A stretch of 25,313 nucleotides of DNA from the NCBI GenBank assembly GCA_023150835.1, contig JAKLKB010000102.1:1-25313 (forward strand), read 5' to 3'. Below are positions 2,587 through 25,313 of this stretch, piece by piece. The notes below the pieces were generated by a model. It was not told where the DNA came from and did not search any database. It saw nothing but the letters and a program-made list of their open reading frames with translations. The position numbers were made by a program, and so were the translations under genes. Each line of letters opens with the position of its first letter. The first letter of the stretch is position 1. This DNA is from Myxococcota bacterium. GTDB lineage: Bacteria; Myxococcota_C; UBA6777.

Positions 2587-5196
2587 CTACTCGACCCAAG
2601 GGCCAAGGAGTGTGTGCGCCCATGCGGTGAGTTTTTCGTGGAAGATCTTGGAGTTGTGTCGAACATCGACGGGGAAAGAGCGGTGGGGCAAGAAATGCAC
2701 GATGGGTTGGGTGATATCGTAAGATTGCGCGAGGGTGCGGAGTTCGGATTCAAGGGCTTTCCAGCGTTCGTCTTGGGTGTCTTTGGGATCGAGGGGTTCG
2801 ATGCAGATCGCGGGAGTCTGGTTTGGGCGCGCTCCGAGTCCCACCAAAGCCGCACGATGCACCTTGGGATGGGTTTGAAAGATCGATTCGCAAGGAACGG
2901 TGAACATTGGGCCTTTGGCGGTTTCGAGGCGTTGTGACTTGCGCCCACAGAACCACACGCGCCCTTGTTCATCAAGCCACCCAAGATCGCCCATGCGATG
3001 CCATATCTCCGAACCTTCGTGGATCTTTGCCAGCGCGGTCCCTTTTTCGTTGTGCAAGTAAGCGTGTGTCACCATCGGGCCTTTGACGGCGATCTCCCCG
3101 ATCTGCCCTGTCGGTAGGACAAGATCGTCTGACCACTTGGGGATGGCTTCGTCGCGTATCGCGATGATCCGCAGCGTGACATCCACACAAGGATGCCCCA
3201 CGCAAACGCCCTTGCCTTGGTCGGTGGCGAAGCGCGTTTCTTGGAGCGTGGTTTGACTGCCGAGGGTACAAAGCGGCATGGCTTCGGTGGCTCCGTAGCC
3301 CGGGAAGATCTCGACACCTTCGGCAAGCATGGGTTGTAACGCAACCAACAAGCTCGGAGGCATCGGTGCTCCCGCAGAGATCACACGTCGAAGACTCGGA
3401 AGCTGGGTGGGCTGGGATCGTGCATAACGCGCCAAGACACGCAACAGCGCGGGAGATCCGAAGAGATTGGTGATCGATTGTTCTTGGATGGCTTGGATGA
3501 TCTTGCGCGCATCGGCCTTGGCAGGGCGTGAAGCATCCATCTCTGGGATGTATGCGCTCATCCCAAGGGCAGGCGCAAACAACGCAAACAGCGGAAAGGT
3601 GCAAAGATCCCGTTCGCTCGGCTGGATGTGATAGGTCTCGCGGATGGTTTTGATCTGCGCTTGGAAGTGACGGTGCGTATACACGGCCCCTTTGGGGATG
3701 CCCGTGCTTCCGCTGGTAAAAAGGATCGCTGCTGTTTCAAACGGTGCAGGAGCGTGAAGCATCGGCCCACCGCCCTGCCCTGCCAACATCACTTCGTCCA
3801 ACGTGTCGCCCACACGACCCACACGACGGCCCACATACACAAAGTGATGGATTGTTTCTTTGGCCCATCCAAGCGCGATCCGCGCAGCATGGGCCTTTGG
3901 GATACCGATAAACCCCTCTGGACGGGCATCGCCCAAACACGCTTTGAGCGATCGCAGACCCATGCCCGGGTCCACCACCACAGGCACCAAACCTGCCTTA
4001 AACATCGCAAAGACCAGTGAGAAAAATTCGAGGCTGGGCGGCACCATCAACACCGTCCGCATCCCGGGCTGAAACCCCAAACGCCGAAGCCCTCGGGCTT
4101 GTTGATCGCTGATCGCGTCCAGTTCTGCATAAGACCAACGCGCATAACGGATCGAACCACCCGCCTCACGGCCTTGAGGCATCGCCACCGCCAAGAGGTC
4201 GGGATGTTCTTTGGCGATCTGCACCAACGCAGCGGCGATATTGCGATGATCGTGCAAGGAGTTTTCTTGGGGAGGTCGGGTTGTACTTTGTGCGGTCTTT
4301 GGTTTGGACGTATTGTGTAGGCAAAACGACTGGATCGCAGCGCAGATGGCGTCGGGTTCGTCTTCGAGGACGTAATGTCCCGCATCAGGAAAGCGCAAGA
4401 TCTCGGCGTGTGGGGCTTTTTCGCGCCATGCACTCAAGAACACATCATCGAAGATAAAGTCCCGCGATCCCCAACAGATCAGCAACGGAAGATGCGCCAG
4501 ACGAGGCAAGGTGTCTTCGACCTGTTTGACGATGGGATAGGCAGGATCGATCGGATACAGCGGGATATCTTGGACAAAGCGCAAGATCCCCCGTCGCTCG
4601 CCCCACGAACCATACGGCCCAAGGTACATCGCCGCAACTTCCGCAGGCATCGGTTGTTTCGCGACGCAGCGCGCCACCGCTCCCCGCGCAAAGGCATTAA
4701 GACCGCGCACCAACAACGCCCCAAGAGGCGTCCGTGTCAGCCGAAGCTCCCATGGAAAGGGCTTCATCGCAGGCAACAAAAAGGCGGAGGTATTCATCAA
4801 AGCAATGCGCTTGATCCGCGAAGGATCGCACACAACATACCCCATCCCGATCATGCCGCCCCAATCATGCGCGATCAACGTGATCTCTTTGGTCACGCCA
4901 AGATGCCCAAGCAAGGCTTCGAGATCGTCGATGCGCTGTTCGAGCGTGTGGCGATAACGCCGATCATCAGGCTTTTCCGAAAGTCCACATCCGATATGAT
5001 CGGGGACGATCACCCGATACGCCCCTCGCATCGCTTGAACCAAGGTACGAAAATAAAAAGACCAACTCGGGTTTCCATGCACCATCACAACAGGCGGGCC
5101 GTCACCTTCGTCGAGATAGTGCATCCGCACGCCGCTTGGAAGAGTGAAAAAATGGCTTTCAAAAGGATAAAGACCGCGATCCACAACAAATGTCAT
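2587..5196 (-). CDS. oleBC: OleBC fusion: beta-lactone decarboxylase (OleB) plus beta-lactone synthetase (OleC)
   Basis: An 869-aa two-domain enzyme for the last steps of head-to-head olefin synthesis. Residues about 1-295 are an alpha/beta hydrolase of the haloalkane-dehalogenase type: HGNPSW at 40-45, nucleophile Asp111 in HDWGG, acid Asp246 in GSRDF and His274 in DAGHYVLEDEP. This is the OleB signature. A Ser/Thr/Pro-rich linker (about 296-318) leads to an acyl-CoA-synthetase-like domain with the P-loop LFTSGSTGIPKG (492-503), PGYGATEAMPL and a terminal HNSKIFHEKL with Lys850, as in OleC. OleC converts a beta-hydroxy acid into a beta-lactone, and OleB removes CO2 to leave the alkene. The ATG at 5196 overlaps the oleA stop (ATGA) and has GGGAG five bases upstream; an in-frame ATG at 5223 is less likely. 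OleB-OleC fusions are best known from actinobacteria, so the fusion beside a myxobacterial-type pfa operon is noteworthy. Confidence 0.92.
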   Translation of the reverse strand: MTFVVDRGLYPFESHFFTLPSGVRMHYLDEGDGPPVVMVHGNPSWSFYFRTLVQAMRGAYRVIVPDHIGCGLSEKPDDRRYRHTLEQRIDDLEALLGHLGVTKEITLIAHDWGGMIGMGYVVCDPSRIKRIALMNTSAFLLPAMKPFPWELRLTRTPLGALLVRGLNAFARGAVARCVAKQPMPAEVAAMYLGPYGSWGERRGILRFVQDIPLYPIDPAYPIVKQVEDTLPRLAHLPLLICWGSRDFIFDDVFLSAWREKAPHAEILRFPDAGHYVLEDEPDAICAAIQSFCLHNTSKPKTAQSTTRPPQENSLHDHRNIAAALVQIAKEHPDLLAVAMPQGREAGGSIRYARWSYAELDAISDQQARGLRRLGFQPGMRTVLMVPPSLEFFSLVFAMFKAGLVPVVVDPGMGLRSLKACLGDARPEGFIGIPKAHAARIALGWAKETIHHFVYVGRRVGRVGDTLDEVMLAGQGGGPMLHAPAPFETAAILFTSGSTGIPKGAVYTHRHFQAQIKTIRETYHIQPSERDLCTFPLFALFAPALGMSAYIPEMDASRPAKADARKIIQAIQEQSITNLFGSPALLRVLARYARSQPTQLPSLRRVISAGAPMPPSLLVALQPMLAEGVEIFPGYGATEAMPLCTLGSQTTLQETRFATDQGKGVCVGHPCVDVTLRIIAIRDEAIPKWSDDLVLPTGQIGEIAVKGPMVTHAYLHNEKGTALAKIHEGSEIWHRMGDLGWLDEQGRVWFCGRKSQRLETAKGPMFTVPCESIFQTHPKVHRAALVGLGARPNQTPAICIEPLDPKDTQDERWKALESELRTLAQSYDITQPIVHFLPHRSFPVDVRHNSKIFHEKLTAWAHTLLGPWVE

Positions 5197-5206
5197 GCCC
5201 ACTCCC
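5193..5206 (-). promoter_or_regulatory. Coupled oleA stop / oleBC start with Shine-Dalgarno
   Basis: On the minus strand the oleA TGA (5195-5193) overlaps the oleBC ATG (5196-5194) as ATGA. GGGAG at 5206-5202 lies five bases before the ATG. This decides the oleBC start and implies translational coupling of the two enzymes. Confidence 0.8.
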
Positions 5207-6257
5207 ATGCTTGCATCATGCAATTCAATCCGCTACCGATCCCCAAGAAACCAACCCGATGACCCGCTTGAAGAAAGCCCTGTTCCCACGCAATCGCCGC
5301 AGTGATCGGCAAAGCGACGCTTCCTGTATTCCCAAGATACGGATAACTCACAAAGTCTCGCGAAGCATCGATCTGCAAAGCACGCAAGATCTCGCGCTGA
5401 TGCGCTCCCCCAACTTGGTGACAGATCACCCGATCGATCGATTCGGGCCGCCATTGGGCCTCCGCAAGAAACCGCTCCCATGTGTGCATCCCCAAGGCCA
5501 CGCCATTCTTCAATACCCCCACCGCATCGGTACGAGCGTACTGCTGCAAGCCAAAAGGCGTGCCATCGCTTTCCACGCCCCATCGACACAGATCATGCAG
5601 GTGCGGCGCAGAAAGGCACGTCGCACTGTGCAGCCGAGGGCGCGCATAATGATGAAACGAACCATCCGACAAGATCAGCGCGATCGCCCCCGAACCACCC
5701 GTCAACGTCGCGAGCGACTGCATCCAACGCTCGCGATTGTTCGGCTGTTGGCGTAGTTCCGCGATCGTCTGTTCGTTGATCTCGCGGGCCGACTCACACG
5801 ACACCACCATCCCACAGCGGATCTGCCCAAGCGCGATGCGGTTGGCGATATCCAAAAGGCCGTTGAGTACGCCAAGACAAGCATTCGAGATATCGTACAC
5901 CATCGCATCCTCAGAAAGGCCGATCCCTGCGGCGATCTTGCACGCTGTTGCGGGTTCGAACTGCTCCCGACAAACACCGCCATACACCAACGCCCCCAAC
6001 GCTTGGGCCGGAATCCCCGATCCTTGTAGAGCCTTCCGCGCTGCACGCAACGCCCCTTCCGACAAAGCAGAGCCCTTTTCCCACCAGCGCCGCTCACGGA
6101 TCCCTGCCAGTCCCTCCAACTGCCCCATCGGAAGCCGCAGCGCCTGATACACCGACGCAAGCTGATCTTCCAACGCAGCCGAAGTGACAACCACAGGTGG
6201 AAGCTCATAACCCACAGCCTCCAAAAAAATGGATCGCGTATAACGCATCGACACCAT
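5193..6257 (-). CDS. oleA: OleA-type thiolase: non-decarboxylative acyl-acyl condensing enzyme
   Basis: A 354-aa thiolase-superfamily protein. It keeps the catalytic set of OleA: Cys127 in NACLGVLNG, His280 in ICHQVGGAHQ and Asn310 in YLGNTGSVALP. Glu101 (REQFEPATA) sits where OleA has the glutamate that reaches the active site of the partner subunit. OleA joins two fatty acyl thioesters head to head to give a beta-keto acid, unlike FabH, which uses malonyl-ACP. The adjoining oleBC, overlapping by 4 nt, strongly supports OleA over FabH. Two starts are possible, ATG at 6257 or at 6248; the latter has AAGGG better spaced, and the difference is three residues. The gene follows pfa3 after 292 bp that hold a MITE-like element ending 14 bp upstream of the ATG. 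OleA's acyl donors could therefore come from the Pfa synthase, but this is inference from position. Confidence 0.9.
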   Translation of the reverse strand: MVSMRYTRSIFLEAVGYELPPVVVTSAALEDQLASVYQALRLPMGQLEGLAGIRERRWWEKGSALSEGALRAARKALQGSGIPAQALGALVYGGVCREQFEPATACKIAAGIGLSEDAMVYDISNACLGVLNGLLDIANRIALGQIRCGMVVSCESAREINEQTIAELRQQPNNRERWMQSLATLTGGSGAIALILSDGSFHHYARPRLHSATCLSAPHLHDLCRWGVESDGTPFGLQQYARTDAVGVLKNGVALGMHTWERFLAEAQWRPESIDRVICHQVGGAHQREILRALQIDASRDFVSYPYLGNTGSVALPITAAIAWEQGFLQAGHRVGFLGIGSGLNCMMQAWEWA

Positions 6258-6271
6258 CCCTTCTCTCTATA

Positions 6272-6436
6272 GGAGTTACGCAGTTGCCAAAAAAACCCGT
6301 GTTCGCAGTGTTTCAAGCGACAGAGTCGTTGTGTTGAAAAGCCTGCGATCTCTTCGCCAACACGGGGTCAAGGGGGCCGAGACCCCTTGCGGGGTGTGGG
6401 GTGGAACCCCACAAAACCGAACCAACTGCGTCATAC
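6272..6436 (+). mobile_element. 165-bp MITE-like palindromic element, copy A (between pfa3 and oleA)
   Basis: Non-coding element with imperfect terminal inverted repeats (GTTACGCAGTTG at 6275-6286, CAACTGCGTCATAC at the right end). Internal hairpins are CAAGGGG/CCCCTTG (6369-6375 / 6383-6389) and GTGGGGT-gga-ACCCCAC (6396-6412). It shares CAAAAAAACCCGTGTTCGC and GGGGTGTGGGGTG with copy D on the opposite strand, and both are 165 bp long. No transposase is encoded, so it would be mobilised in trans by an unidentified element. Confidence 0.8.
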
Positions 6437-6549
6437 GATACCTGAGAGCAGTCCTGCGATTGGGCAGCCACAGGGGGCTGCCCCTACTTATGCGGCACAC
6501 CAAACAGGCAGATTTCGTATAACCCAATCATCTTTTTGAACAGTTTACG
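6437..6549. repeat. Short intergenic hairpin repeat downstream of pfa3
   Basis: GGGCAGCC (6462-6469) pairs perfectly with GGCTGCCC (6476-6483) across a six-base loop. There is no T tract in the direction of pfa3 transcription, so intrinsic termination is not supported and read-through into oleA remains possible. The rest of the segment holds nothing I recognise. Confidence 0.5.
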
Positions 6550-9500
6550 CTACTTTTTCGCCATCCAAGCCAACGCAAAGTCCTTGATCTCGTAGATGGC
6601 GCGGCCATCCACATGCAACAAGCCATCTGCGCGCAATCGCTTGTTCGGTACGTCGACGTCGGTGATACGGGCCTCGACACGCACACGCTCACACGTCGGG
6701 ATCACTTGGCCTCGATAGCTCCAACGGTGCGTCGTTTGCGGGGGCATCGCCACCATCGCTCCATCCGATCCGCCAAAACGCCGCATCGCTTCGACTTTCA
6801 TCAACTGCAACATCGCTTCCAAGCCCAAAGATCCCGGCCACACAGGGTCTTGGTAAAAATGCGCTTGAAAGAACCAATCTGCCGGATTCACACGCTTGAT
6901 CCCGCACAACAACGGCTTGCCTTGTGGATCCGCATCGGGCGGATACAACCACACCTCGTCAAGCATCCGCAGCATCTCCGAGGGAAACGGGGCTTGGCGT
7001 GGAAAAGGCCGCTGTTCGGCGCGGATATCGTAGGCTGGGTCGATCAGCGGCTTGGTTCCGCGCATCCCCACTTGTTGCGCCAAAGCTGCTTGCGAAAAGA
7101 AGCCAAAGTACGTTTTTCCCGTATAGACGGGGCCGTTGCGATCTTCGACAGACATCGCGTAATGCTGGATGATCATCCCGCCCGAATGAGAAACTTGCGT
7201 ACATTGCACTTCCATCCGCAAAGTCCCTGTTTGCGGCGTCACCAGCCGATGCACCGTCGCCTCTCCACCAAGGTTTCGGAAGTGCAAGGCTTCTTCGCTT
7301 GCAAACGCCGACCCCATAAACGCCGCCATCCATCCACACGGCTGCAAGGCGATCTCCAGCAACACAGCAAACGGCATCCAAGGTTGACGCTCTGCCCCAA
7401 AGTACCAAGCATCGGGCGGGATATCATAGGCCGCGATCACCCGTGTCCCCGCCTTCATCTCAGCCAACGTCCCCTCAACACCGATCACCCGATCCATAAA
7501 CAAGTACGGAGGACTCGGCAAACGCGCCAAAAATCGCTCCTGATCAAAGACCCCATAACGCGGCCCAAAACACAACGACGGCTTGCCCTTCGCATACTCA
7601 AGGATCTGCTGCGCATCGTACAGCACAGGCGTTTGGGCAAATGCGGCCCTGCTCTCAACACAAGACTCCTGCAATGGCCCGACGTCGTAGAAACCAACGT
7701 GCGGGCAATCCTCAGTTACGCAGATCTCACAAGACTCCTGCGATGGGTCGGTTTTGTGGGGCGAGGGACCGCCCCCCGCGAGAAGGCTTCGCCCTTTTGA
7801 CCCCGTATCGGCGAACAGATCATCGTCTTTCAAAACAACGACGCTACCGCTTGAAACCTCACGAACACGGGGGGTTTTGTCTGCTGCGCGGCGCAAATCA
7901 AGAGAAAAAGAGCGTGCAGGTTCGCGCTGCCAAAGAGCCCACAGCGCAGGATAGCCACTGCCCGTCAATTGCAGAGACATCTCACGCACCAGCACAATGG
8001 GACGATCATCGGCATACATCAACGCATCTGCGATCGCATAAGGGGCGGGATTGTAGCCGAGTTCTTTGAGATGGATCTCATAACGAACTTTTCGAGTGCT
8101 TTGTAAAACTTGGCCTCGACAACGCAGTTGGCTTTTGACTCCCGCAACAGGCTCCCATGCCACCACGCCGTCTTCTCCGAGCCATCCGAGGCTTAGGAGA
8201 TACAGCCGCATGGTGTGCAAGCAACACTCGTACATCAACGTACCCGGCATCACCATGTCATCGACAAAATGGCACGTCAAAAACCAATCGTCAGGATGGA
8301 TATCCATCTCCGCCACAAGACAACCGATCCCAAATCGCCCACCCATCGGCTCAAAAGACAACACGCGATCCAGCAGCTTCATCCGCCCATCGCGCCCCCC
8401 GGGAAGCGTCAAGGGATGGCGCAACGGCAAGCGCGCAAACGCTTCTCCCAACGCCGCACTCAGATCTCCTTGGCGCAAGGCCGCAAGCTCGGCATCTTGG
8501 GGCGGATGCGGTAAGACGTGGCTCCACAACACCCCACGCGGATCGATCCTCCCGTCGCCCTTGCCCCACTCTTTTTCGTTGAGGACGATGCCTTTGCCTT
8601 CTTCGAGTTGACGTGCGCTAAAAAAGCCCGCGCATCCGTTTCGCATCGTTAAGACTTTTTGCCCCGCAACAGTGCTGTCAAAAGCAAAGCGGAAAAGATA
8701 CGTCTCGTCGTGCTTAAAAAATCGCTCAATGCGGATATCGTGGTGGATCACTTCACCCGCACGCGGTAAGCCCGAATGGAAGGTGATCTCCGCATCAAGC
8801 AGCCGATACATCGCCAAACCGCCCGTCTCTCGGTCGACTCCAAGATAGCCCGACAACATCAGATCCGCTTGGCCCGACTCGACCGCGATGCACGTCGGAA
8901 GCCGCCCACCATCCAAATACCACGCCTCGGGCAAGATATCATGCTCCGTCACGATCCGCCCCGAACGCAGCGAAAAAGGTTCGCCTTCGAGCGCCAACAC
9001 CCGATCCACCAACATCAACGGCTCATCTGGCAAACGAACCCGCGTCGGATGCGCATCGATCGACGCAAACGCTTCTCCCCAAACCTCGCCGATCCGACCC
9101 GTCGCAAAACGCAAGCAAGCCGCTCGATCCATCACCACAGGCTGCACAAATGTCGGACGCTGCGGTACTTCGCGTGTACTCAGACGACTCGCCACAGACG
9201 TATACGCAGCCAACGCCTCTTGTGCGTCTCGAAGATACGCAGCATGCGCTTGGATCTCTGCACTTTCCAAAGCCAGTAGCACCCCAAGCATCGGCTGCGA
9301 TGCACTCAACGGGAGCGGTGAGGCCATCCTGTTCGTCCCTTCTTGATGTTGGAGGGGTTGATCCCCAAAGACAGATCCGTTGTGTTGAAAGACCTGTGCT
9401 GTCTTCGCCGATACGAGGTCCATAGAGTCGCGCTCTATGGCGGGGTCTGGGGTGGAACCCCACGAGGATGCTCGAACTGCGTAAGTCTTCTCAGAGAGAA

Positions 9501-12500
9501 CAAACGTGGGGATCAAAGGAGCCTCAGGCGTCCCCACCGCCAAAGAAACCGCAAGACGCGGTGTGTGCGCAAGAACAGGCGTTTTTTCTGTAGCGGCCCA
9601 AGCATCGGAAAGATGCGGCAGGCGATGGGCGGTCAACGCAGCGCGCAAACGTGCGATGGATTCAGGGGGGGTCGAATCTTCAACACAGGCCGAACGTGCA
9701 AAAAAAGGCTCGTCGCCAAGGATCTGACCGATCATCCGAGAACAACCATCCCCCGGCCCGATCTCGATAAACAAACGTACTCCCTCGCGGTGGGCCTGTT
9801 GGATCACAGCCGGAAAATCGATCCCGTGACGAGCATTCGCAAGAATCGAATCGGCGGCCTGTTCCGAAGTCAGCGCAAAACTGCGCCCCCAGTTTCCGCT
9901 GTAAAAGCGCACACCTTCGGGCGGTGTCACAGGATGCAGATGCAGCGCACGATAGGCAGAGGCAACAGGTTCGAGAACTTCGCAATGAACGGTGGTCACA
10001 CCTTCGATCGGGACGAACGCGCAGCGCTGCACTCGCACCCATTCCTCGACGGCTTGGGCTTCACCGCCGATCACGCAAGCGTCAGGCGTGTTGACGATCA
10101 ACAAATACACGCGAGGCGTTTCTTGTAAGGAGGCTCGCAAAGACGCAGCCGAGCGATTGACGAGGCCCATCTTCCAGCGCAGTTCTCGATGGGCAGGCCA
10201 CCCCCAAAGCTCACGCGCCGCCAAGCAAGGCCCCGCAAGATCGGTCGTAAACAGCGTCGAACGCAATGATCGCAACAGCATCGCGTCACGATCTCGCCAA
10301 GCCCGCAAGGAAAACAACGCCGTCGACTCGCCCAAAGAGTAGCCGATCGCCGCATCGGGTTCGATCCCAAGCGAATGACGGAGGATATCGCTCACCATCG
10401 CCCCAAGCGTCACTTGTGCAAAGATCAACTCCGCGCAAGTGAGCGCGTCTTGGCGCGTTTGTTGACGCCACACGCGGTCGCTAAACATCTGGGCGCGCAA
10501 GAAACCATTTTCTTTCGCTTGCTGTTCGAGGATCTCAGGCCAATACAGCGCTTCCAATCGCCCCATCTGCGGGAACTGCGCCCCTGACCCGGGGAAAACA
10601 AAGGCGATCTCTCCGCTTTTTCCGAGCGGCTGGGGCGTATAGAAGATATCTTCGCGAGGGCGGTTGGTGGTATTGCGCGATTGTTCGAGGATCGTCTGCG
10701 CACGAGCAAGCGTCTGTGTCGGCGGTGTATCGGACGAAAACAAGGCACTCAAGGCCAACGCAGGTGGGGGCTGAGCGATATCTCGCTGTTGCCAATCTGC
10801 GATGTGTTCTTGAAGGGGCCGCTCAGGTTGGTGTTGGGTTTGTTGGGCGAAGGCATGGAGCTTTTGTGCGATCGCATGGGGCGTATCACCCGCAAACACC
10901 GCCATCGACGGAGCGCACCGTTCAGGACGCCAAGCCACGCGAAGCTCATGGCGCGGCGACACAGGCGACTCGCGCAGCAAAAGATGAAACACCTTTCCAT
11001 CCCGACTATTTGCCGCAACAAGCGCACGACGCGGTCCAACAGCACGATCATGCACCCATGATTCGGGCTTTCGCAAAGGTTCCACAAAACGCCCCACCGC
11101 CGCCAAGGGCTCCCATCCCCGATCCGCCGAAGCCAACGCAGGCAACACCCGATGATGCAACCCCCAAACCGCCCTCGCCAAAGCCAACAAACCACTCGCA
11201 GCCCCCGCCCACCCCGTCACACTCGACGTTGCAGACAAGACCGCCTTTTGAGGCGAACGTATCGCTGCGATCTGTGCAGAGAATTCGATGGATTCAGCAA
11301 GAGCAGCTTCGCTGTCCACTTGAACAGCAGCCCTGCTATCCGCTTCAAGAGAAACCTCGCTGTCCACCCGAAGGGCAACCTTGCTATCCGCTTCAAAAGC
11401 AGCCTCGCTGTCCACCCGAAGGGCAACCTTGCTGTCCGCTTCAAAAGCAGCCTCGCTGTCCACGCGAAGAGCAGCCCCCCCCCCCGCATGACGGGCCTCG
11501 GCGGCATAGGCGCGTTCCAAGGCGCGCAGCCAAGAGGAAGCCGCCAAGAGGTCGGTGCCATCGGCGTATTCGATACACTCAACCGAAGAAAGCGATACAC
11601 CCGCCTCGCGCAAAGGGGCCGCCAAGGAACGCTCACAAGCCTCTTGATGCGCGATGCACCGTTTGTCCGACTCAAGGCGCAGATCGTCACCCCCCGCGCA
11701 TCCGATCCCCTCCAACACAGCGTAGATCGTCTGTCCATCCGCGAGGGCATCCGACAAGGGCTTCAACACCAACGCAACAGCACCATCGGCAGGAAGGCTG
11801 CCTTGGTGATCTGGATCAAACGGTCGAGGCGTTGCATCCGAAGAAAAAGGACACTCGCGATGCGCAAGCAGCGAAGCGCGCAGATCGCTTGTGAGATCGA
11901 CCGCAGCCACCAAGGCTTGCTTGATCTCGCCGCGTTGGATCGCACGAACCGCGATCTCCAAGGCTCGCAGCCCCGAACCTTCCTCGTTGGCGATCACAAA
12001 GCTCGGCCCACCGAGCCGATACTCCCGCGCCAATCGGCTTGCAACGATGCTTGCAAGTCCTCCCATCGTGCGGTTTGCGTTGAGCGGAGGTGTCAGCGCA
12101 TCGCACAACGATGCGATCCATCGCTCAGTTTCGGCCTCCTCTTGTGGGATCTCCGCAGCCGTCTTCCATGCCTTGACGATGGCGGGCAAGACCCAACGCA
12201 GATGGTAGTCGGTGGTATGAAGATCCAAGCCCACCCCAACATAAACTCCGGTCGTCTCGGCATCTGGGACCTCGACACCCTTTTCGCGGCCCCATTGTGC
12301 ATCACGCAAGGCGTCATCAGCCACTTGCAGCGTCCACAATTGTTGCGGCAAAAGCTCCGCCATCTCTCGCGGTGGGATGCGAAATCGCCCCGCAGGAAGA
12401 TCCACCGTCTCGCAAAACAACCCTTGCCTCGGCAAAGGCGACGCTCCTTGCCAAGCCGTCCAAGCCTCTGTCTGCCCAATCCCCCACCAAGCCGCTTCTT

Positions 12501-14328
12501 TGCGAGGCAGATCCATCTGCTCTCCCAAAAAAGCCCGCAACAACGCCTCTTGATCGTTGTACCCACCCACTCGCGCAGCGATCCCCACCACCGCAACAGC
12601 CTGCTCTTTCGCCGACGCAACGGAAACCTTGGTATCCGCCGACACAACCGTCTGTTTGGTTGTAGGGATGGTGGAGTGGTACGCTGGATCGTACGCTTCG
12701 ACGAGCAGATGGGCATTGATGCCACCAAAGCCAAAGGCGCTTACGGCGGCTCTGCGTGGATGTGGGTGCAAGGCTTCCCACGGCTGCGGCTTCGTCAAGA
12801 CACGAAACGGGCTGTCTTGAAGGTTGATCTTGTCCGAAGGTCGTTGGAATTGCGCTGTAGGCGGAAGTGTTTGGTGCTTCAAAGCCAACAGAACTTTAAG
12901 CAAGCCAGCGCCGCCTGCCGCCGTCAAGAGATGGCCGATATTGGACTTGGCCGAACCAAGGACGCATGGAACGAGGCGATCGCGATCCTTCCACAAGCTG
13001 CGCAAGCTCTCGAACTCGACAGCATCGCCGACAGGCGTCCCCGTCGCATGGCACTCGATCAGATCAACGCTTTGCGGCTCCCATCCTGCGGCGCGATACG
13101 CTGCACGCATCGCCCGAAGCTGCCCCTCGCTATCAGGAGCCAACAACCGCCCGCCGATATCGTTGGAAAGGCCGACGCCACGCAACACACCGTAGATGTG
13201 CTGTCCATCGCGCAGCGCGTCCTCTAGGCGGCGCAACACAAACAACGCTGCCCCTTCCCCCACCAAAAGGCCGTCAGCATGTGCATCAAAAGGCGTACAC
13301 GCTCCCTTGGAAGACAAGGCATGAAGCTGCGAAAAGCCCATCTGTGTGTAAAGATGATCAGGACGAGAAAGCCCTCCCACCAACGCAGCGTCACAACGCC
13401 CCGATTGAAGGCCATCACAAGCAAGCTTGATCGCATACAACGAAGAAGCACAAGCCGCGTCCAATGTGTACGTGCTTCCCTGCAAATCAAAAGCTTGCGC
13501 GATCAGCGCCGCAGGAAGGGCAGCGATGCCTCGCGCTGTCAACGCAGGATCAGAGGCCACACCGTGCGCTGTTGAAGTCGCAGCGGAGGCCACACCATGC
13601 GCCCTCGAAGCAGGCTCAAAAGTCACATCCTGCGCCGTTGAGGTCGCAGCGGAGGCCGCACCATGCGCCCTCGAAGCAGGCTCAGAGGTCACATCATGCG
13701 CCGTTGAGGTCGCAGCGGAGGCCACACCACGCGCCATCAAGGTTGGATCAATGCCCAAGCCTTGTTTGCCTTGCTGTTCTCCTAAAGCGGTGATTGGGGA
13801 CTGGCAGACTGCACGCCAGATCGAGGCAAGGCGGCGCTGTTGTGCTTCGTCTTGCGTCACCGCTCTCGCCACAGGTTCGGCCAACGCACCCAACAGCAAA
13901 GACTGTGTGATGGCTGCGTTTCGCTCGGTCGGTAAGGCGATATGTCCGAGGATTACGTCCGTTCGTTGGCGAAGACAGGTCGCCATCGCCGCATCTTCTA
14001 AAGCCATCCTCGCCACAGCAAGCGCGAGCCGTAGACTTTCATCCAGCCCTTCGAGCAAAGACGACGGCAGCGCAAGCCGATCCGCCTCTAGCCTTGGTGG
14101 AGTGGTGATGAAACAGCCAGTACGCGCCAGTACCCGATCCGCTTGGGGTGTGTCGGGCGCATACAAGGCATCGACAGGCGCGCTCCACCGTCCGAGCGGA
14201 GGTAAGCGATGCGAGGCGTGGCCGCATAAGAGATTTTCCCAAAAGTCTTCGGGGGTCGGAGCATCAGGGAGGCACGCGCCGATCCCAACGATCGCGATGG
14301 TAGGCAGAACAGACGGAGCAACGGTCAA
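6550..14328 (-). CDS. pfa3: Pfa3/PfaC-type PUFA synthase subunit: KS-CLF-AT-DH-DH
   Basis: A 2592-aa megasynthase. Domains in order: KS (about 9-545) with the full triad Cys293, His427 and His466; CLF (about 580-1063) with the Cys replaced in ANEEGSG; AT (about 1240-1570), PfaB-like, with Ser1331 in GYSLGES; and two tandem double-hotdog FabA-like dehydratases. DH1 (about 1730-2126) has His2020 in CHFVDDMVMPG; DH2 (about 2243-2592) has His2490 in AHFYQDPVWPG. The FabA-like DH domains are expected to dehydrate and isomerise, leaving cis double bonds. The AT within the KS-CLF protein matches myxobacterial Pfa3, but the C-terminal AGPAT-type acyltransferase found in some relatives is absent. The start is a TTG overlapping the pfa2 stop by 4 nt, with AGGAG eight bases upstream. 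Four in-frame repeat insertions occur: within KS (199-265), within CLF, and in the AT-DH1 and DH1-DH2 linkers. There is also a G11 tract. Confidence 0.93.
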   Translation of the reverse strand: MTVAPSVLPTIAIVGIGACLPDAPTPEDFWENLLCGHASHRLPPLGRWSAPVDALYAPDTPQADRVLARTGCFITTPPRLEADRLALPSSLLEGLDESLRLALAVARMALEDAAMATCLRQRTDVILGHIALPTERNAAITQSLLLGALAEPVARAVTQDEAQQRRLASIWRAVCQSPITALGEQQGKQGLGIDPTLMARGVASAATSTAHDVTSEPASRAHGAASAATSTAQDVTFEPASRAHGVASAATSTAHGVASDPALTARGIAALPAALIAQAFDLQGSTYTLDAACASSLYAIKLACDGLQSGRCDAALVGGLSRPDHLYTQMGFSQLHALSSKGACTPFDAHADGLLVGEGAALFVLRRLEDALRDGQHIYGVLRGVGLSNDIGGRLLAPDSEGQLRAMRAAYRAAGWEPQSVDLIECHATGTPVGDAVEFESLRSLWKDRDRLVPCVLGSAKSNIGHLLTAAGGAGLLKVLLALKHQTLPPTAQFQRPSDKINLQDSPFRVLTKPQPWEALHPHPRRAAVSAFGFGGINAHLLVEAYDPAYHSTIPTTKQTVVSADTKVSVASAKEQAVAVVGIAARVGGYNDQEALLRAFLGEQMDLPRKEAAWWGIGQTEAWTAWQGASPLPRQGLFCETVDLPAGRFRIPPREMAELLPQQLWTLQVADDALRDAQWGREKGVEVPDAETTGVYVGVGLDLHTTDYHLRWVLPAIVKAWKTAAEIPQEEAETERWIASLCDALTPPLNANRTMGGLASIVASRLAREYRLGGPSFVIANEEGSGLRALEIAVRAIQRGEIKQALVAAVDLTSDLRASLLAHRECPFSSDATPRPFDPDHQGSLPADGAVALVLKPLSDALADGQTIYAVLEGIGCAGGDDLRLESDKRCIAHQEACERSLAAPLREAGVSLSSVECIEYADGTDLLAASSWLRALERAYAAEARHAGGGAALRVDSEAAFEADSKVALRVDSEAAFEADSKVALRVDSEVSLEADSRAAVQVDSEAALAESIEFSAQIAAIRSPQKAVLSATSSVTGWAGAASGLLALARAVWGLHHRVLPALASADRGWEPLAAVGRFVEPLRKPESWVHDRAVGPRRALVAANSRDGKVFHLLLRESPVSPRHELRVAWRPERCAPSMAVFAGDTPHAIAQKLHAFAQQTQHQPERPLQEHIADWQQRDIAQPPPALALSALFSSDTPPTQTLARAQTILEQSRNTTNRPREDIFYTPQPLGKSGEIAFVFPGSGAQFPQMGRLEALYWPEILEQQAKENGFLRAQMFSDRVWRQQTRQDALTCAELIFAQVTLGAMVSDILRHSLGIEPDAAIGYSLGESTALFSLRAWRDRDAMLLRSLRSTLFTTDLAGPCLAARELWGWPAHRELRWKMGLVNRSAASLRASLQETPRVYLLIVNTPDACVIGGEAQAVEEWVRVQRCAFVPIEGVTTVHCEVLEPVASAYRALHLHPVTPPEGVRFYSGNWGRSFALTSEQAADSILANARHGIDFPAVIQQAHREGVRLFIEIGPGDGCSRMIGQILGDEPFFARSACVEDSTPPESIARLRAALTAHRLPHLSDAWAATEKTPVLAHTPRLAVSLAVGTPEAPLIPTFVLSEKTYAVRASSWGSTPDPAIERDSMDLVSAKTAQVFQHNGSVFGDQPLQHQEGTNRMASPLPLSASQPMLGVLLALESAEIQAHAAYLRDAQEALAAYTSVASRLSTREVPQRPTFVQPVVMDRAACLRFATGRIGEVWGEAFASIDAHPTRVRLPDEPLMLVDRVLALEGEPFSLRSGRIVTEHDILPEAWYLDGGRLPTCIAVESGQADLMLSGYLGVDRETGGLAMYRLLDAEITFHSGLPRAGEVIHHDIRIERFFKHDETYLFRFAFDSTVAGQKVLTMRNGCAGFFSARQLEEGKGIVLNEKEWGKGDGRIDPRGVLWSHVLPHPPQDAELAALRQGDLSAALGEAFARLPLRHPLTLPGGRDGRMKLLDRVLSFEPMGGRFGIGCLVAEMDIHPDDWFLTCHFVDDMVMPGTLMYECCLHTMRLYLLSLGWLGEDGVVAWEPVAGVKSQLRCRGQVLQSTRKVRYEIHLKELGYNPAPYAIADALMYADDRPIVLVREMSLQLTGSGYPALWALWQREPARSFSLDLRRAADKTPRVREVSSGSVVVLKDDDLFADTGSKGRSLLAGGGPSPHKTDPSQESCEICVTEDCPHVGFYDVGPLQESCVESRAAFAQTPVLYDAQQILEYAKGKPSLCFGPRYGVFDQERFLARLPSPPYLFMDRVIGVEGTLAEMKAGTRVIAAYDIPPDAWYFGAERQPWMPFAVLLEIALQPCGWMAAFMGSAFASEEALHFRNLGGEATVHRLVTPQTGTLRMEVQCTQVSHSGGMIIQHYAMSVEDRNGPVYTGKTYFGFFSQAALAQQVGMRGTKPLIDPAYDIRAEQRPFPRQAPFPSEMLRMLDEVWLYPPDADPQGKPLLCGIKRVNPADWFFQAHFYQDPVWPGSLGLEAMLQLMKVEAMRRFGGSDGAMVAMPPQTTHRWSYRGQVIPTCERVRVEARITDVDVPNKRLRADGLLHVDGRAIYEIKDFALAWMAKK
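7712..7893 (-). mobile_element. MITE-like element, copy B, read in frame inside pfa3 (DH1-DH2 linker)
   Basis: The minus strand shares with copy A, in the same order: CCCGTGTTCG, TTTCAAGCG, GTCGTTGT, CGGGGTCAA and CCCCACAAAACCGA. Remnants of both ends remain (GCGCAG on the left, CTGCGTAACT on the right). It lies entirely within the pfa3 frame, encodes about residues 2146-2206 and contains no stop. It is longer than 165 bp near its right end, where CACAAGACTCCTGC (7728-7741, plus strand) also occurs 69 bp away at 7659-7672. Confidence 0.78.
9361..9487 (+). mobile_element. MITE-like element, copy C, antisense inside pfa3 (AT-DH1 linker)
   Basis: The plus strand shares CGTTGTGTTGAAA, TCTTCGCC, TGGGGTGGAACCCCAC and AACTGCGT with copy A, in the same order and similar spacing. 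The first 30-40 bases of the element are unrecognisable, so the left boundary is approximate. It is inverted relative to pfa3 transcription, yet the pfa3 frame stays open through it (about residues 1614-1656). Confidence 0.7.
11303..11494. repeat. 24-bp tandem repeat in the CLF domain of pfa3
   Basis: Seven clear 24-bp units (11303-11470) plus one degraded unit. Two types alternate, for example GCAGCCTCGCTGTCCACC and GCAACCTTGCTATCCGCT beginnings, giving a 48-bp higher-order period. The encoded 8-residue units alternate ALRVDSEA and AFEADSKV. The repeat lies in the C-terminal half of CLF. Confidence 0.9.
11475..11485. repeat. Eleven-base C/G homopolymer inside pfa3
   Basis: A run of 11 C on the plus strand (11 G on the coding strand) encodes Gly-Gly-Gly at the edge of the 24-bp repeat array. 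Tracts of this length are prone to slipped-strand mispairing, and a one-base change would cut Pfa3 short within CLF. It is also a common place for sequencing error. Confidence 0.85.
13534..13764. repeat. 33/66-bp tandem repeat inside the KS domain of pfa3
   Basis: Seven 33-bp units start at 13534, 13567, 13600, 13633, 13666, 13699 and 13732. Two types alternate, giving three 66-bp repeats (13567, 13633, 13699), the last one diverging. They encode 11-residue units such as GVASAATSTAH and DVTSEPASRAH at about residues 189-265, just before the KS active-site segment that contains Cys293. Confidence 0.9.
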
Positions 14329-14341
14329 GATCGGGACTCCT
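14325..14341 (-). promoter_or_regulatory. pfa2 stop / pfa3 TTG start with Shine-Dalgarno
   Basis: On the minus strand the pfa2 TGA (14327-14325) overlaps the pfa3 TTG start (14328-14326) as TTGA. AGGAG at 14341-14337 lies eight bases upstream, inside the end of pfa2. This supports TTG as a start codon in this operon and coupled translation of the two largest subunits. Confidence 0.75.
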
Positions 14342-17300
14342 GCGAAGATCGAAAGGTGTCAACAAGCGATGGATCGGCGATGCTACGAGCCGATTCGACG
14401 CACAAGATCAGCGCACCTTCGAGGTCAAGCACTTCGAGATCCGCCATCAGCACAGGAAGAGAACTTGGTTGCATCCAAACACGCACCTCACAAGGCTGCT
14501 CAGGCCGCCACGTCCGAAAGATATCCATCCGCGCAAAGCCCGTCGGCAGGCAAGGAAAGCCATGTTGTTGCAACGACCACAAGATGATCATCTGAAAGGC
14601 TCCATCGAGCCAGAACGGATCGAGCAACCAATCCCGACGCAGCGGCTGTTCCATCCAACTTGCGGGCGGTGTGGCCGCTTTTAAGCGAGCGCGAATCCCC
14701 GTTGCATCGCAACCTTCGACAGATTCGATGCAATGAAACAGCGGCCCGTGAAACAACCGATCGTACGGAGAAAAAGACAAGGCCCCTTTGGGAAGCGCAC
14801 GTTGCGATGGCGATGGGATGGGCTGCTGCGGCCCAAAAAGCAGCCGCGCAGAAGCGTGTGTCAACGTCTTTGCGTGAGACGAACTTTCGCAGACAGCCGC
14901 CAATTGGAACCCCTCATCGGTGGAAGCAAGATCGCGGATCGTACAGCGCAAGGGGACCGCTTCTTGTGTGAGGGTGCAGCCTTTTCGCACCTCCATCCCG
15001 TCCATCCGCAACCAACGCAACGAGGCCGTCGGGTGCTGTTGGGACAAGACTGTGTGCGCTGCCACCGCCATCCATTCCACCATGATCGCCGCAGGAAGCA
15101 CCCCAACCCCGCGCATCTGGTGATCCCGCAAAAACAGATCACGCTGCGTGGTCAACGTGCGTTGCCATCCCACCCACTCGTCCGTGTCGATCCTCCCCAA
15201 GATCACGACTTCGATATCTTCTTGCGGGGTTCGCCTTGATGGCGTAAGGGATCGACCCGACGGCTGGTCCGATGCGGTCGATGCGTTCGAGGGCTCAAGC
15301 GACGGAACAGCGGTCATCTTGGACGAAAGCTCTTGCAACATACAGCGTGCGCCCTCTTCCAATCCGATTACACCGACACCTTCGCGTGCGAATATCTGCT
15401 TGAGTGCGGGTGTCACCATGCCGCCATCCCAAGGCCCCCAATTCATCGAACGCACCACACAGTTGGGCAGGCGTCGATGCAGGCGTTGTGCGATCTTGTT
15501 GAGGGCCTCGTTTGCCATCGCATAATCCGCTTGGCCGATCCGCCCAAAGCGCGCCGTACTCGACGAAAAAAGCACAACACAACGCAACGCCGATTCATCC
15601 ACCGCCCCAAGCAGCCCCAAAAAGCCTTGCACCTTGGTGGCGTAGACTTTTTCTGCATCCGCAAGCCGCTTTTCGGCGATCAGTCGATCCGCCAAGATCC
15701 CCGCACCATGGATGATCCCGCGCACAGGGCCTTCTTCGACTTGCACAGATCCCAACAAAGCCCGAACTGCCGATGAATCAGCGATATCAAGGCTGCGGTA
15801 CAACACCTTTGCCCCGAAGCGTCGCAAAGCGGCGAGAGTGCGATGCACTTCGCGACCGCGCAAGATATCTTCGCATCGTCGTTGGATATCACGGGGGCTG
15901 GGCTTGCCTTGTGTGTGTTCAAGCAAAGCTTTTTTGATCGAGGCCTCCTCATCGAGTCCTCGTAACCACGCCGCTTCGGGTTCTGGCAACGGTGAGCGCC
16001 CCAACAAAAGCAGCGTCGGTTGACAGGCTTGCGCAAGCGCCTGCGCCACCGTCGCTGTCACGCCACGCGCCCCCCCTGTGACAATCACCAGATCGCCCCG
16101 CTGGATCGGCAAACTTCCAACGATATCCGCTTCGGTCAACGTAGCTGACTGCTTCAAGGACGGAAAAGATATCGGAGAAAGGACGGACGGCTGCAAAGAA
16201 AGCATCCGCCATCCGCCAGTCGCTCCAGCGATCTCGACAGGTCCGATCGCACAAAGCGCCGCCCAGACATCTTGGATAGCCGTTTCTGCGTCGAGATCTG
16301 GCGCGATATCCAAGGCGCGACAGTGGACTTGCGGCCATTCACGCGCTGCTGTCTTGGTCAATCCCGCCAACGCACCGCTATCCACAGCGATCGGCGGCTC
16401 AAGCCGCCCCTGACCCAAACCAAAAGCGCCGTCCAAACGAGAGATCGTTGCGAACAACGAACCGCCTTGCATCGCGCTCGATTGGAGGGCTTTTGCTGCC
16501 GACTTGGCAACGGCCAAAGCCCCGAAGCTATCGGGAACTTCTCGAAATGGGGCCACCAAGATCACGCCACGCAGCACCGCTTGGGCCTCCAAGACCTCGG
16601 GAAGCTGCGACACGGAAAGCACTTGCGGAAAAAAGCCTTGCGCTTGTGCGAAAGCAGCGATCTTTTCGGCGAGACCGAAAGCGTCCGAGGTGAGATACAA
16701 CGGCCCCTGTTTGGCAAGCGAAACAGAAGTGGTAGCCGAAAGAGAGAATGGATCCGTTTGAAGAGTCAGGCGCTGAAGCTGTGCGGGCCAACGCGTCAGA
16801 TCAGCGCCGAAGGAAGGGTCCGCAGGTGGCCCTCCTTCGTGGGTCGCCATCGTGGGCGGCCCTCCGTTGGTTTGCAGGGTCTCCATCAGCGCCCCAACGA
16901 TATCACCGAGGGTACGGAGGCTTCCGAGTGCTTGCGAAGAAAGATGCGGCAACGAGGGTTGGGCTTCTTGGAGAGCCGACAAGATCTCCACGCGCTTGAT
17001 GCTATCGATGCCCAGATCCGCATCCAACTCCATCGACACTTCGAGGATATCCATCGGATAGCCCGTTTTTTCGGCCACCACCCGAAACAACAGCCCTGAC
17101 AACGCAGACGCATCAGCAGCACTTGATCCCTTGGGCTGTTCCGATGCGGATCGTGGATGCGCCACAAAAGAAGGCGCGGACAACACAGTCGGCGCAGACG
17201 AACGAAGCGAATCGCCATCCGCGTGCGTGTCTCCGTTGGTGCGGTGACCTGAACCGTTGCCATGAAAAGAGGTTGCAGCAGAAGAGATCGCTGCCGAACT

Positions 17301-20300
17301 CCCATACACGGGCGGAGCCGAAGGTTGGCGCATGACAGCCGAAGGCGCAGCAGCGGAAACAGCGGGCGCGGGCTGACGCGAGACAACAGAAGAGGCCGAC
17401 GAAAGCGGCACAACGGCGGACGATGCAGGCGCAAAAGACATCGTGGGTGTCGGCACAAAAGAAGTCCGTGATGTCGGTGCAAAAGAGGCTGCCGATGCAA
17501 AAGAGGCTGCCGGTGCGAAAGAGGCTGCCGGTTCAAAAGAGGCTGCCGGTGTCGGTGCATAAAGGGCGGCAGGAAGAGGCGGTTGAGCGGAGGCAGGCCA
17601 TGAGATATCCGTGGATTGTGGAGATATCCCGTGTTGTTGGAGCCACATCTGATAAAAGACCTGACGGGCTTGTTGTTGGCCTTCGAGGAATTGTTGGTGA
17701 AGTTGAGCGGTTTGTTGTTGGAGATGCAAAAGCTGGTAAAGCATCTGCTGGTTTGTGTGCAAAAGATCGTCCGACATGGTGCGGCTTCCCTGTATTGGTG
17801 AAGGAAAAACAGAACGAGATCGATGGGGTTCGATGGGGGGTCGTTGTGTGTTTGCGTTGGGGGATCGCAGGATGCTTGCGTTTGTGGGTGTAGCCTGCAT
17901 CGCATTTAATGGGATAGGCTTCGTGGTTGAAGAGGCCGATGGTTTGGAGTCGATGGGTGATGCGCTCGGCATCGTGGAGCGCTGGTTAGAAGAGGCCGAT
18001 GGTTTGGGGGGATCAGTCTGTAATGCGCTTGATGGCGTTGTTCGAGAGATCAAAGAGGCCGTGAGCGTAGGCGATTCGAGACGCGCAGGACTCCGAGGGA
18101 TCGATGAGGTAGGCGAAAGAGGAGTTGGTGGTGTAGGAGATTCGAGGCGCGCAGGACTCCGAGGGATCGATGAGGTAGGCGAAAGAGGAGTTGGTGGTGT
18201 AGGAGATTCGAGGCGCGCAGGGCTCGGAGGGATCGCACGTTGCGAAGTAAAGACATTGGCACCCGAGATCATCACTTGCATGGTGGGCTTTTTGGAGTGT
18301 TCGGCGGGTCGGGTGGTGGCGGTAGTATCCCATTCAGCGAGGCGTAGGGGATAACCGTGTGCAGCGAGACGCGCAAGCGTCAACGCCAGATCCCGCAAGC
18401 CGTCGCGTTGGCCTTGTGAGGCATCAAGCGAAAAGGCATCGACGCCTTCTTTCTCTGCGAGGATGGACTCGATCAAACGAGTCATGCGAGACCCCGGTCC
18501 AAGCTCCAAGAAGATCTGCGCCCCTGCATCGGCCATCGCGGAGATCTGCTCAACAAAACGCACAGGCGAGGCCAGTTGCGCAGCGAGCAAAGACGCCGAG
18601 GCTTGAAGCTCGGATGGATAAGGCGCAGCGGTCTTGTTGGCAAAAACAGGCGTATGGGTGGAAGACCACGCCCGAGAAGAAAGGCACTCCAAAAAAGGAG
18701 CTTGGGCGTCGGAAACAAGGGGGCTATGAAAAGCTGCGGCCACGGGGATACGACGCGTTTGCATCTTGCGGGATTCGAGGCGCGGTTCGGCAGCGGCGAT
18801 CGCGGCAAAGGTTCCCGAAAGCACCGCTTGGGTGGGGCTATTTTGGTTGGCGATCACAAGGTCGGGGGCTTCTTCACGCACAAAGGCATCGATCTGCGCG
18901 AGCGGAGCTTGGACAGCCAGCATCGTCCCGCGATCTCCGCCTTGGGCCATCAATTGGCCACGTTTGTGCGAGATCGCAAACAAGGTTTCTTCGTCGTAGG
19001 CTCCCGCCAAATGCAGCGCAACAAGTTCTCCGTAGCTATGTCCCGCCAGCAGATCGGCTTGCACACCAAAACGCGCCAAGGTACGCGCAGCAGCCAAACT
19101 CACCGCACCAAGCGCAGGTTGCGCTACATCGGTAGAACGCAAGGCATCGTCTTGAGAGAGCCGTTCGGCTTCATCCCACGCAGGGATCGGATAGATCAAG
19201 CGATCGAGCGGTGTGGTATGCGTCGAGTGTCTGCGCCAAGCTTGTTGTGCGCGTTCTAAAACACCAAAGGATTCAGGGAAATGGCACACAAGATCGCGCA
19301 ACATACCTGTGTATTGGCATCCTTGCCCGGGTACGATCACAGCCAGTTTTCCGCTTCTTGGCCCGCGACCATACGAGATGCCTTCGGGAGTCGTCCAAAC
19401 GCCCGCTTTCTCGGGAGAGATGGCGGCTTGTTTTTCAAAACGATCCATCGCTTGCAACGCTGCATCGCGCAAAGCCCCCCAACGTTCGGGCGGAGTGTGA
19501 GATTCGCAGGCCCACAACAACCGATGCGGCGCATCCGAACGAAACGCAGCACGTTGTTGGATGGCTTGGGCGCAAAGCTGCGACCATCCTTGAGGGATCT
19601 CCCAAGAGGACAAGGCTTTTTCGATCTGTGCAGGGGTGTCCGCACAAAAGGCAAGGATCTGAACACGCCCATCCCAATCAGGCGATGTCGGAAGATGAGG
19701 ATCAGCTTCTTCAAGGACGCAATGAAAGTTCGAGCCGCCAAAACCCAACGCGCTCAACGCCGCACGACGGGGAGAATCGGACGAAGACAGCCACGGTCTC
19801 AGTCGATTGTTCAGATAGAGGGGGGTGCGTTCTTGTCGCAAGATCGGCAAAGGCTTACGCGCTTTGATCGAAGGCGGAAGAACCTTGCGATGCAAGGCCA
19901 AGGCGATCTTGATCAATCCGGCCACCCCTGCGGCTGCTTTGGTATGTCCGATCTGCGACTTGACCGATCCGAGCGCGCACCACGGCGGCTGCTCGGGTTC
20001 GGCTTGGCCAAAAACTTCGACCAGCGCTTTGATCTCCGTCGCATCGCCGACTTTGGTTCCTGTGCCGTGAGCCTCGACAAGCTCGATGCTTCGGGCATCT
20101 ACGCCTGCCCGTTCGTAGGCACGACGCAGAGCCTTGGCTTGGCCTGTGTCGCTTGGGGCGTAGATGGCACGCCCGCGCCCGTCACTCGAAGAGCCGATGC
20201 CTTTGATCACGGCATAAACGCGATCTCCATCGCGTCGCGCATCCGCAAGGCGCTTGATCGCAACCATCCCCACGCCTTCGCCGAGGATGGTTCCGTCGCC

Positions 20301-21101: not shown

Positions 21102-21111
21102 CTCACTCTCC
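21099..21111 (-). promoter_or_regulatory. Probable pfa2 ribosome-binding site and TTG start
   Basis: On the minus strand, GGAG (21111-21108) precedes a TTG (21101-21099) by six bases. A GTG at 21113 is in frame but has no purine-rich site at a suitable distance. This is inferred from spacing only. Confidence 0.5.
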
Positions 21112-21178
21112 ACACATCGAAAGCATCCAACAGCAAACACACCGAACTCGACACAAAGCCCCAAACCAGCAGCGCGCT

Positions 21179-22792: not shown

Positions 22793-22906
22793 GATCGATC
22801 TCCTATCGTTTTCGGTACCATTTCCCGTCCGACTTTTTGCTCGCAACCCTCTCGCCCAACACACCGAGCCAAACCAAGACAGAACGACTCCCCTCGGACC
22901 TTTGGC

Positions 22907-25139: not shown

Positions 25140-25304
25140 GGACTTACGCACTTGGGCTGGTGTGGTGGGGTTTCACCCCACACCCCACAAGGGACTGTCG
25201 CCCCTTGACCCCGAAAGGGGCGAAACGATCACTGTTTTTCACACAGACGACCCTCTCGCTTGGAACACCGCGAACACGGGTTTTTTTGGGCAACTGCGTA
25301 AGTT
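25140..25304 (-). mobile_element. 165-bp MITE-like palindromic element, copy D (upstream of the gene series)
   Basis: The best-preserved copy. Its ends are inverted repeats: ACTTACGCACTTG on the left (25142-25154) and CAACTGCGTAAGT on the right (25291-25303). The pentamer CGATA lies directly outside both ends (25135-25139 and 25305-25309), as expected for a target-site duplication. It carries the same internal palindromes as copy A but in the opposite orientation. It encodes no protein. Confidence 0.82.
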
Positions 25305-25313
25305 CGATATGAT

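Follow-up and report, generated by a model that had tools for sequence, protein, structure and literature searches.

A MITE-like element read in frame in two inter-domain linkers of a putative PUFA-synthase-type megasynthase

Introduction

Rickettsia palindromic elements (RPEs) are dispersed repeats that were reportedly described by Ogata et al. in 2000 and 2002. These elements contain ORFs that encode a conserved peptide, and almost half of them have been found within ORFs (PMC10969869). In enterobacteria, intragenic ERIC and RU elements give rise to ORF fusions and new peptides (Delihas 2007, PMC2759123). The QMITE1 and QMITE2 elements of Coxiella burnetii are MITEs with copy numbers in the tens, and occasionally a copy sits in frame in the interior of an ORF for a hypothetical protein (PMC5896051). 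The ERIC/RU elements and the Coxiella QMITEs are the nearest general precedent for the case described here, and a narrow query of the open-licence literature turned up no report of such an element in a linker of a PKS or PUFA synthase.

We analyzed a stretch of 25,313 nucleotides (hereafter the window), which is one contig of a 7.56-Mb draft genome (G000; 239 contigs, many repeats). The original prediction placed a MITE-like element in frame between two DH domains of a Pfa3 protein. This locus resembles an RPE insertion in that a small (~150 bp) dispersed repeat lies in frame in a functional protein gene and adds ~50 residues at a tolerated site, and in that orthologues without the repeat exist. 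The element is, like ERIC and RU, MITE-like, of similar length, mostly intergenic and now and then fused to or located inside ORFs; with QMITE1 and QMITE2 it shares the occasional in-frame insertion of a MITE in the middle of an ORF. Unlike in the ERIC/RU case, the insertion here extends a linker within a conserved megasynthase, and neutral evolution of an element-coded linker was measured between species; unlike with QMITE1/QMITE2, the insertions lie in a multi-domain enzyme for which purifying selection was measured.

Host gene and element copies in the window

A profile HMM built from 70 full-length genomic copies, all from outside the window, identified four copies of the element in the window, two of them intergenic and two within a megasynthase gene. 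The features are as follows.

6550..14328, minus strand: megasynthase gene, host of both in-frame elements (ORF list; Pfam ketoacyl-synt, Acyl_transf_1 and three FabA matches)
7742..7893, minus strand (the sense of the gene): element copy 1 in the DH-DH linker, read in its own orientation (nhmmer, 114 bits, E=6e-35)
9367..9490, plus strand, opposite to copy 1: element copy 2 in the linker between AT and the first DH, 5'-truncated (71-82 bits, E ~1e-21 to 1e-23)
6269..6435, plus strand: intergenic full-length copy directly downstream of the megasynthase gene (167 bits)
25141..25308, minus strand: intergenic full-length copy at the window end (144 bits)
7659-7677 and 7728-7746, minus strand: 19-bp direct repeat CCATYGCAGGAGTCTTGTG, a small local duplication at the distal end of copy 1

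The profile matches run over 6269-6434 for the downstream intergenic copy and over 9370-9487 for copy 2, which scores 71 bits under the model free of window copies. The best of 300 dinucleotide shuffles of the gene scored 9.9 bits and the reversed sequence gave no profile matches. The scores and the shuffles thus exclude a chance likeness of the sequence blocks shared by these copies, and the proposed relationship of copy 1 to the intergenic copies is borne out. The frame had also been read correctly as coding: the ORF on the minus strand is free of stops over 2592 codons, through copy 1 as well. The proposed span of 7712-7893 does contain the element; however, the profile match covers 7742-7893, and at its right-hand end it is followed by ~20 bp of foreign sequence and then by a degenerate terminal repeat near 7711-7722. 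The second in-gene copy, which is likewise read in frame, was absent from the original prediction. Copy 1 is 73-84% identical to other genomic copies by BLAST and identical to none of those found. Between the downstream intergenic copy and the gene, positions 6445-6510 hold a GC-rich palindrome, GATTGGGCAGCCACAGGGGGCTGCCCCTAC, which resembles another dispersed repeat family; a GATTGGGCAGCCACAGGGGGCTGCCCCTAC-like sequence that adjoins a further element copy matches the sister genome at more than 20 places.

The domain order of the 2592-aa protein is KS, second KS/CLF-like, AT and tandem FabA-like DH regions. Pfa3/PfaC-like would be a fair name for this predicted PUFA-synthase-type megasynthase, because its gene adjoins a KS-AT-ACP-KR-DH (pfaA-like) gene and a PfaD-like enoyl reductase gene. 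The protein is similar to Pfa3/PfaC-type proteins in its KS, second KS, AT and tandem DH regions and in its pfaA-like and pfaD-like neighbours. The cluster partners are intact. Tandem repeats with whole-codon units of 24, 33, 18 and 66 bp occur in both megasynthase genes (11298-11500, 13533-13751, 17472-17561 and 18067-18264, respectively). In the 6550-14328 gene their copy number differs from that of the sister species (45-aa and 24-aa gaps), and one of them lies inside the N-terminal KS region. The pfa-like genes (6550-22864) are adjoined by a thiolase/ACP_syn_III-like gene (5193-6257), presumably OleA-like, and by a gene for a fusion of alpha/beta-hydrolase and AMP-binding domains (2587-5223), which we take to resemble an OleB-OleC fusion. 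The combination of pfa and ole neighbours suggests a putative polyunsaturated hydrocarbon pathway.

Structure and class of the element family

The family consensus is ~170 bp long and is bounded by terminal inverted repeats (TIRs), ATAGGACTTACGCAGTTG ... CAACTGCGTAAGTCCTAT. The TIR pattern has 147 matches over both strands versus one match with the reversed pattern, and the best copies have 1-5 mismatches across both ends together. An ORF is not part of the element: of 40 full-length copies, only 11-15 are open in any one of the six frames, and no frame is preferred. These counts also led us to reject the reading of the family as an RPE-like element that bears an ORF in a preferred frame. Given this length and the lack of a consistently open frame, no transposase is encoded. 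The family thus shows several features of MITEs, being short, dispersed and present in high copy number, with TIRs, no transposase, and an insertion polymorphism with an empty site. Hints of target-site duplications of 3-4 bp (CAG, GTAG) are seen at some copies and are inconsistent among copies.

In the sampled regions, no autonomous IS with the same ends was found among DDE_Tnp_1 and DDE_3 loci and TIR pairs spaced 0.8-3 kb apart. The TIR pairs in C183 and C102 enclose no recognisable transposase, and the DDE_Tnp_1 and DDE_3 loci are without paired TIRs around the transposase; both sets of candidates were rejected. A second class of ~118-bp palindromic elements has the same terminal inverted repeats (for example, L205 2243-2361, and many other contigs); in the first 1.49 Mb there are 12 TIR pairs spaced 110-119 bp apart.

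Genomic distribution and avoidance of genes

The census that the original prediction had proposed, of copies inside versus between genes, identified 254 element copies in 2.25 Mb (30% of the genome), which extrapolates to ~850 copies per genome; the reversed control, run on a smaller sample, gave none. Only two of the 254 copies are inside called genes, both in the megasynthase gene on a contig that was chosen for this finding (without the four copies of the window, the count is 0/250). Random placement would put 67% of copies in genes (p ~1e-117), where the expectation is for a 150-bp segment well inside a gene and predicted genes make up 84% of the sample. The element family therefore strongly avoids genes. 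The home-made gene caller trims 5' ends, and 22 copies, examined in part, fall within such 5' extensions of gene frames, so that N-terminal cases may be undercounted.

A third in-gene copy was found by hand at C138:97980-98128. There it lies in frame in a TonB-dependent receptor, after the signal-peptide-like N-terminus and before the plug domain; this receptor gene with its element lies behind a cobalamin riboswitch (L116 1056-1671, equal to C138:97529-98144) and is kept in the sister species. Other candidates were rejected. Among tblastn matches in long open frames, the sister locus L130 is not coding, and the copies in C201 and C206 that overlap gene starts precede signal peptides and are thus probably located 5' to the gene.

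Element copies are numerous in G000 and in its congeneric sister species G001, and none was detected in three other genomes of the same family (G002-G004); the element appears to be genus-restricted. The phylum-level search covered five genomes only (G000-G004), all from one family, which makes for very sparse sampling of the lineage. Mobility of the element is indicated by an intact copy at C136:16984-17155 that corresponds to a contiguous empty site in G001, while other copies are seemingly occupied at the orthologous place, with flanks ~170 bp apart.

Compared by described features rather than by sequence, and with a host lineage labelled Myxococcota, the family shares with RPEs the presence in frame in functional protein genes, as seen in the two copies of the megasynthase and in the TonB receptor. 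In contrast to RPEs, ~1% of its copies are in genes (2/254 and one by hand), each frame is open in about one third of copies, and both orientations are used in one gene. The proposed Rickettsia-like behaviour thus holds for the insertion itself, which works like that of an RPE, but not on a comparable scale, as genes are strongly avoided, no frame is preferentially open and more than one reading frame is used.

State of the in-gene copies in the sister species

Both genomes are drafts, and that of the sister species is a MAG. Copy 2 is orthologous and in frame there (L131). At copy 1 the two species differ.

7621..7860, minus strand: absent from the sister orthologue, 240 bp or 80 codons (BLASTN versus L102; protein gap of 80 aa)
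7861..7893, minus strand: element tip kept by the sister, ACAAAACACCCCGTGTTTGT (~31 bp, model positions 10-40)

The missing segment holds most of copy 1 together with ~90 bp of adjoining non-repeat DNA. As positions 7612-7738 are single-copy in the genome, we rejected the interpretation that the entire 240-bp difference is the element. The proposed insertion of ~60 residues was therefore correct as to its site, the DH1-DH2 linker, but not as to its size, which relative to the sister is 80 aa including the non-repeat part. The gap does not match the exact footprint of the element, and there is no clean empty site at copy 1 in the sister. The tip retained by the sister scores 10.2 bits (E=2e-5 within 120 bp around the junction, E=0.003 within 14 kb). 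In addition, the residues FAQTPVLYD next to the copy match FSGKPILYD of the outgroup, and the sister is without most of them.

Copy 1 is most likely an ancestral insertion that was mostly deleted in frame in the sister, because an apparent element tip is found at the junction and FAQTPVLYD is mostly missing there. It is alternatively conceivable, and in our judgment unlikely, that copy 1 is recent and unique to this species, given that it is found in one of the two species only and that the two orthologues differ there by complete codons. However, the sister has element-tip sequence at the exact junction and mostly lacks the outgroup-like residues, and copy 1 is diverged from the other copies rather than fresh. 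As the tip spans only ~31 bp (10 bits), an independent insertion at an element-like sequence in this species is a less probable alternative. The intergenic copy at 6269-6435 has a truncated counterpart at the same place in the sister, the same kind of partial deletion as that proposed for copy 1. Apart from extra N-terminal residues of the sister, every gap between the two megasynthase proteins consists of complete codons, and the frame continues undisturbed on either side of it.

Linker length, selection and disorder

The DH-DH linker is 103 aa long in this protein and 22 aa in the sister, while among 51 relatives, a few distant ones of which are poorly aligned, the median is 15 aa and the maximum is 57. 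The alignment of orthologues foreseen in the original prediction thus gave much shorter linkers where the element is missing, and the MITE-bearing linker sets this protein apart from its Pfa3/PfaC-type relatives. Neither of the two refuting outcomes named with the original prediction, an equally long homologous linker in element-free orthologues or a lack of further genomic copies, was observed.

Relative to the sister, dN/dS is 0.17 for the whole gene, 0.08 for KS, 0.09 for AT, 0.11 for DH1 and 0.12 for DH2. For the coding segment of copy 2 we obtained dN 0.300, dS 0.219 and dN/dS 1.37, an estimate from 40 codons of one copy in one species pair; the segment differs from the rest of the gene (Fisher p=7e-6) and does not differ from neutrality (p=0.80). 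The element-coded AT-DH linker appears to drift neutrally, as judged from these substitution rates, while the catalytic domains are conserved. An AlphaFold2 model of the DH-DH region, built with 15 sequences, has a mean pLDDT of 74.5 and a pTM of 0.53. Modelled residues 261-351, which comprise most of the insert, have pLDDT below 50 and lie between better-modelled folded domains, so that the insert is probably disordered in the real protein as well. With purifying selection on the domains, a neutral AT-DH element segment and a DH-DH insert disordered in the model, the claim that such linkers tolerate insertions was supported.

These data bear on two further explanations. Selection may have co-opted the copies, with linker length or sequence mattering for DH-DH geometry or product chain length; the AT-DH copy is in frame in both species, and the length of the DH-DH linker greatly exceeds that seen in all 51 relatives. 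We regard this as very improbable, since copy 2 evolves at the neutral rate, copy 1 is mostly deleted in the sister with the DH domains still conserved, and the insert is disordered in the model. Numerous in-frame repeat expansions and indels could also point to a decaying gene, in which insertions are tolerated as the enzyme no longer matters. This reading has very little to commend it because it is contradicted by the rate data (dN/dS of 0.08-0.12 in the KS, AT and DH domains); moreover, the 2592 codons contain no stop, every indel preserves the frame and the cluster partners are intact. Finally, an assembly error that collapsed or wrongly joined a repeat within the gene, as might be suspected in a repeat-rich draft of 239 contigs compared with a MAG, can practically be dismissed, since copy 1 is identical to no other copy found, the frame is open throughout and an independent assembly has copy 2 in the same position.

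Discussion

We consider it very probable that the megasynthase linkers passively tolerated the MITE, with the frame kept, the peptide drifting and copy 1 later lost in the sister species. A non-autonomous MITE-like family would have multiplied in this genus, presumably transposed in trans by a host transposase, and two copies would have entered inter-domain linkers before the split of the two known species. Each copy may have happened to be stop-free and compatible in length with the frame of the gene, in opposite orientations. By chance, about one in ten insertions might persist in a tolerant linker, because about one third of copies are open per frame and one third of lengths fit. The inserts would add only disordered spacer between independently folded catalytic domains, probably with no effect on catalysis; the copies may have been retained because nothing else was lengthened. 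Selection would then not have removed them, keeping the reading frame and nothing else, and the element-coded peptide would drift neutrally. In the sister, most of the DH-DH copy would later have been deleted, again in frame.

A further idea, which we put forward as speculative and improbable, is that megasynthase linkers are safe landing sites and that MITE inserts supply long linkers that later alter the geometry or product of the synthase. If true, MITEs would be a driving force by which such linkers evolve.

The locus adds, from outside Rickettsia, a documented instance of in-frame tolerance of mobile repeats. Here two independent insertions of opposite orientation in one conserved enzyme come together with a probable ancestral state and a later in-frame loss in the sister species, and with a direct measurement in which the element-coded peptide appears neutral beside strongly conserved domains. 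These observations suggest that megasynthase linkers can take up ~60-80 additional residues, a point of relevance to linker engineering.
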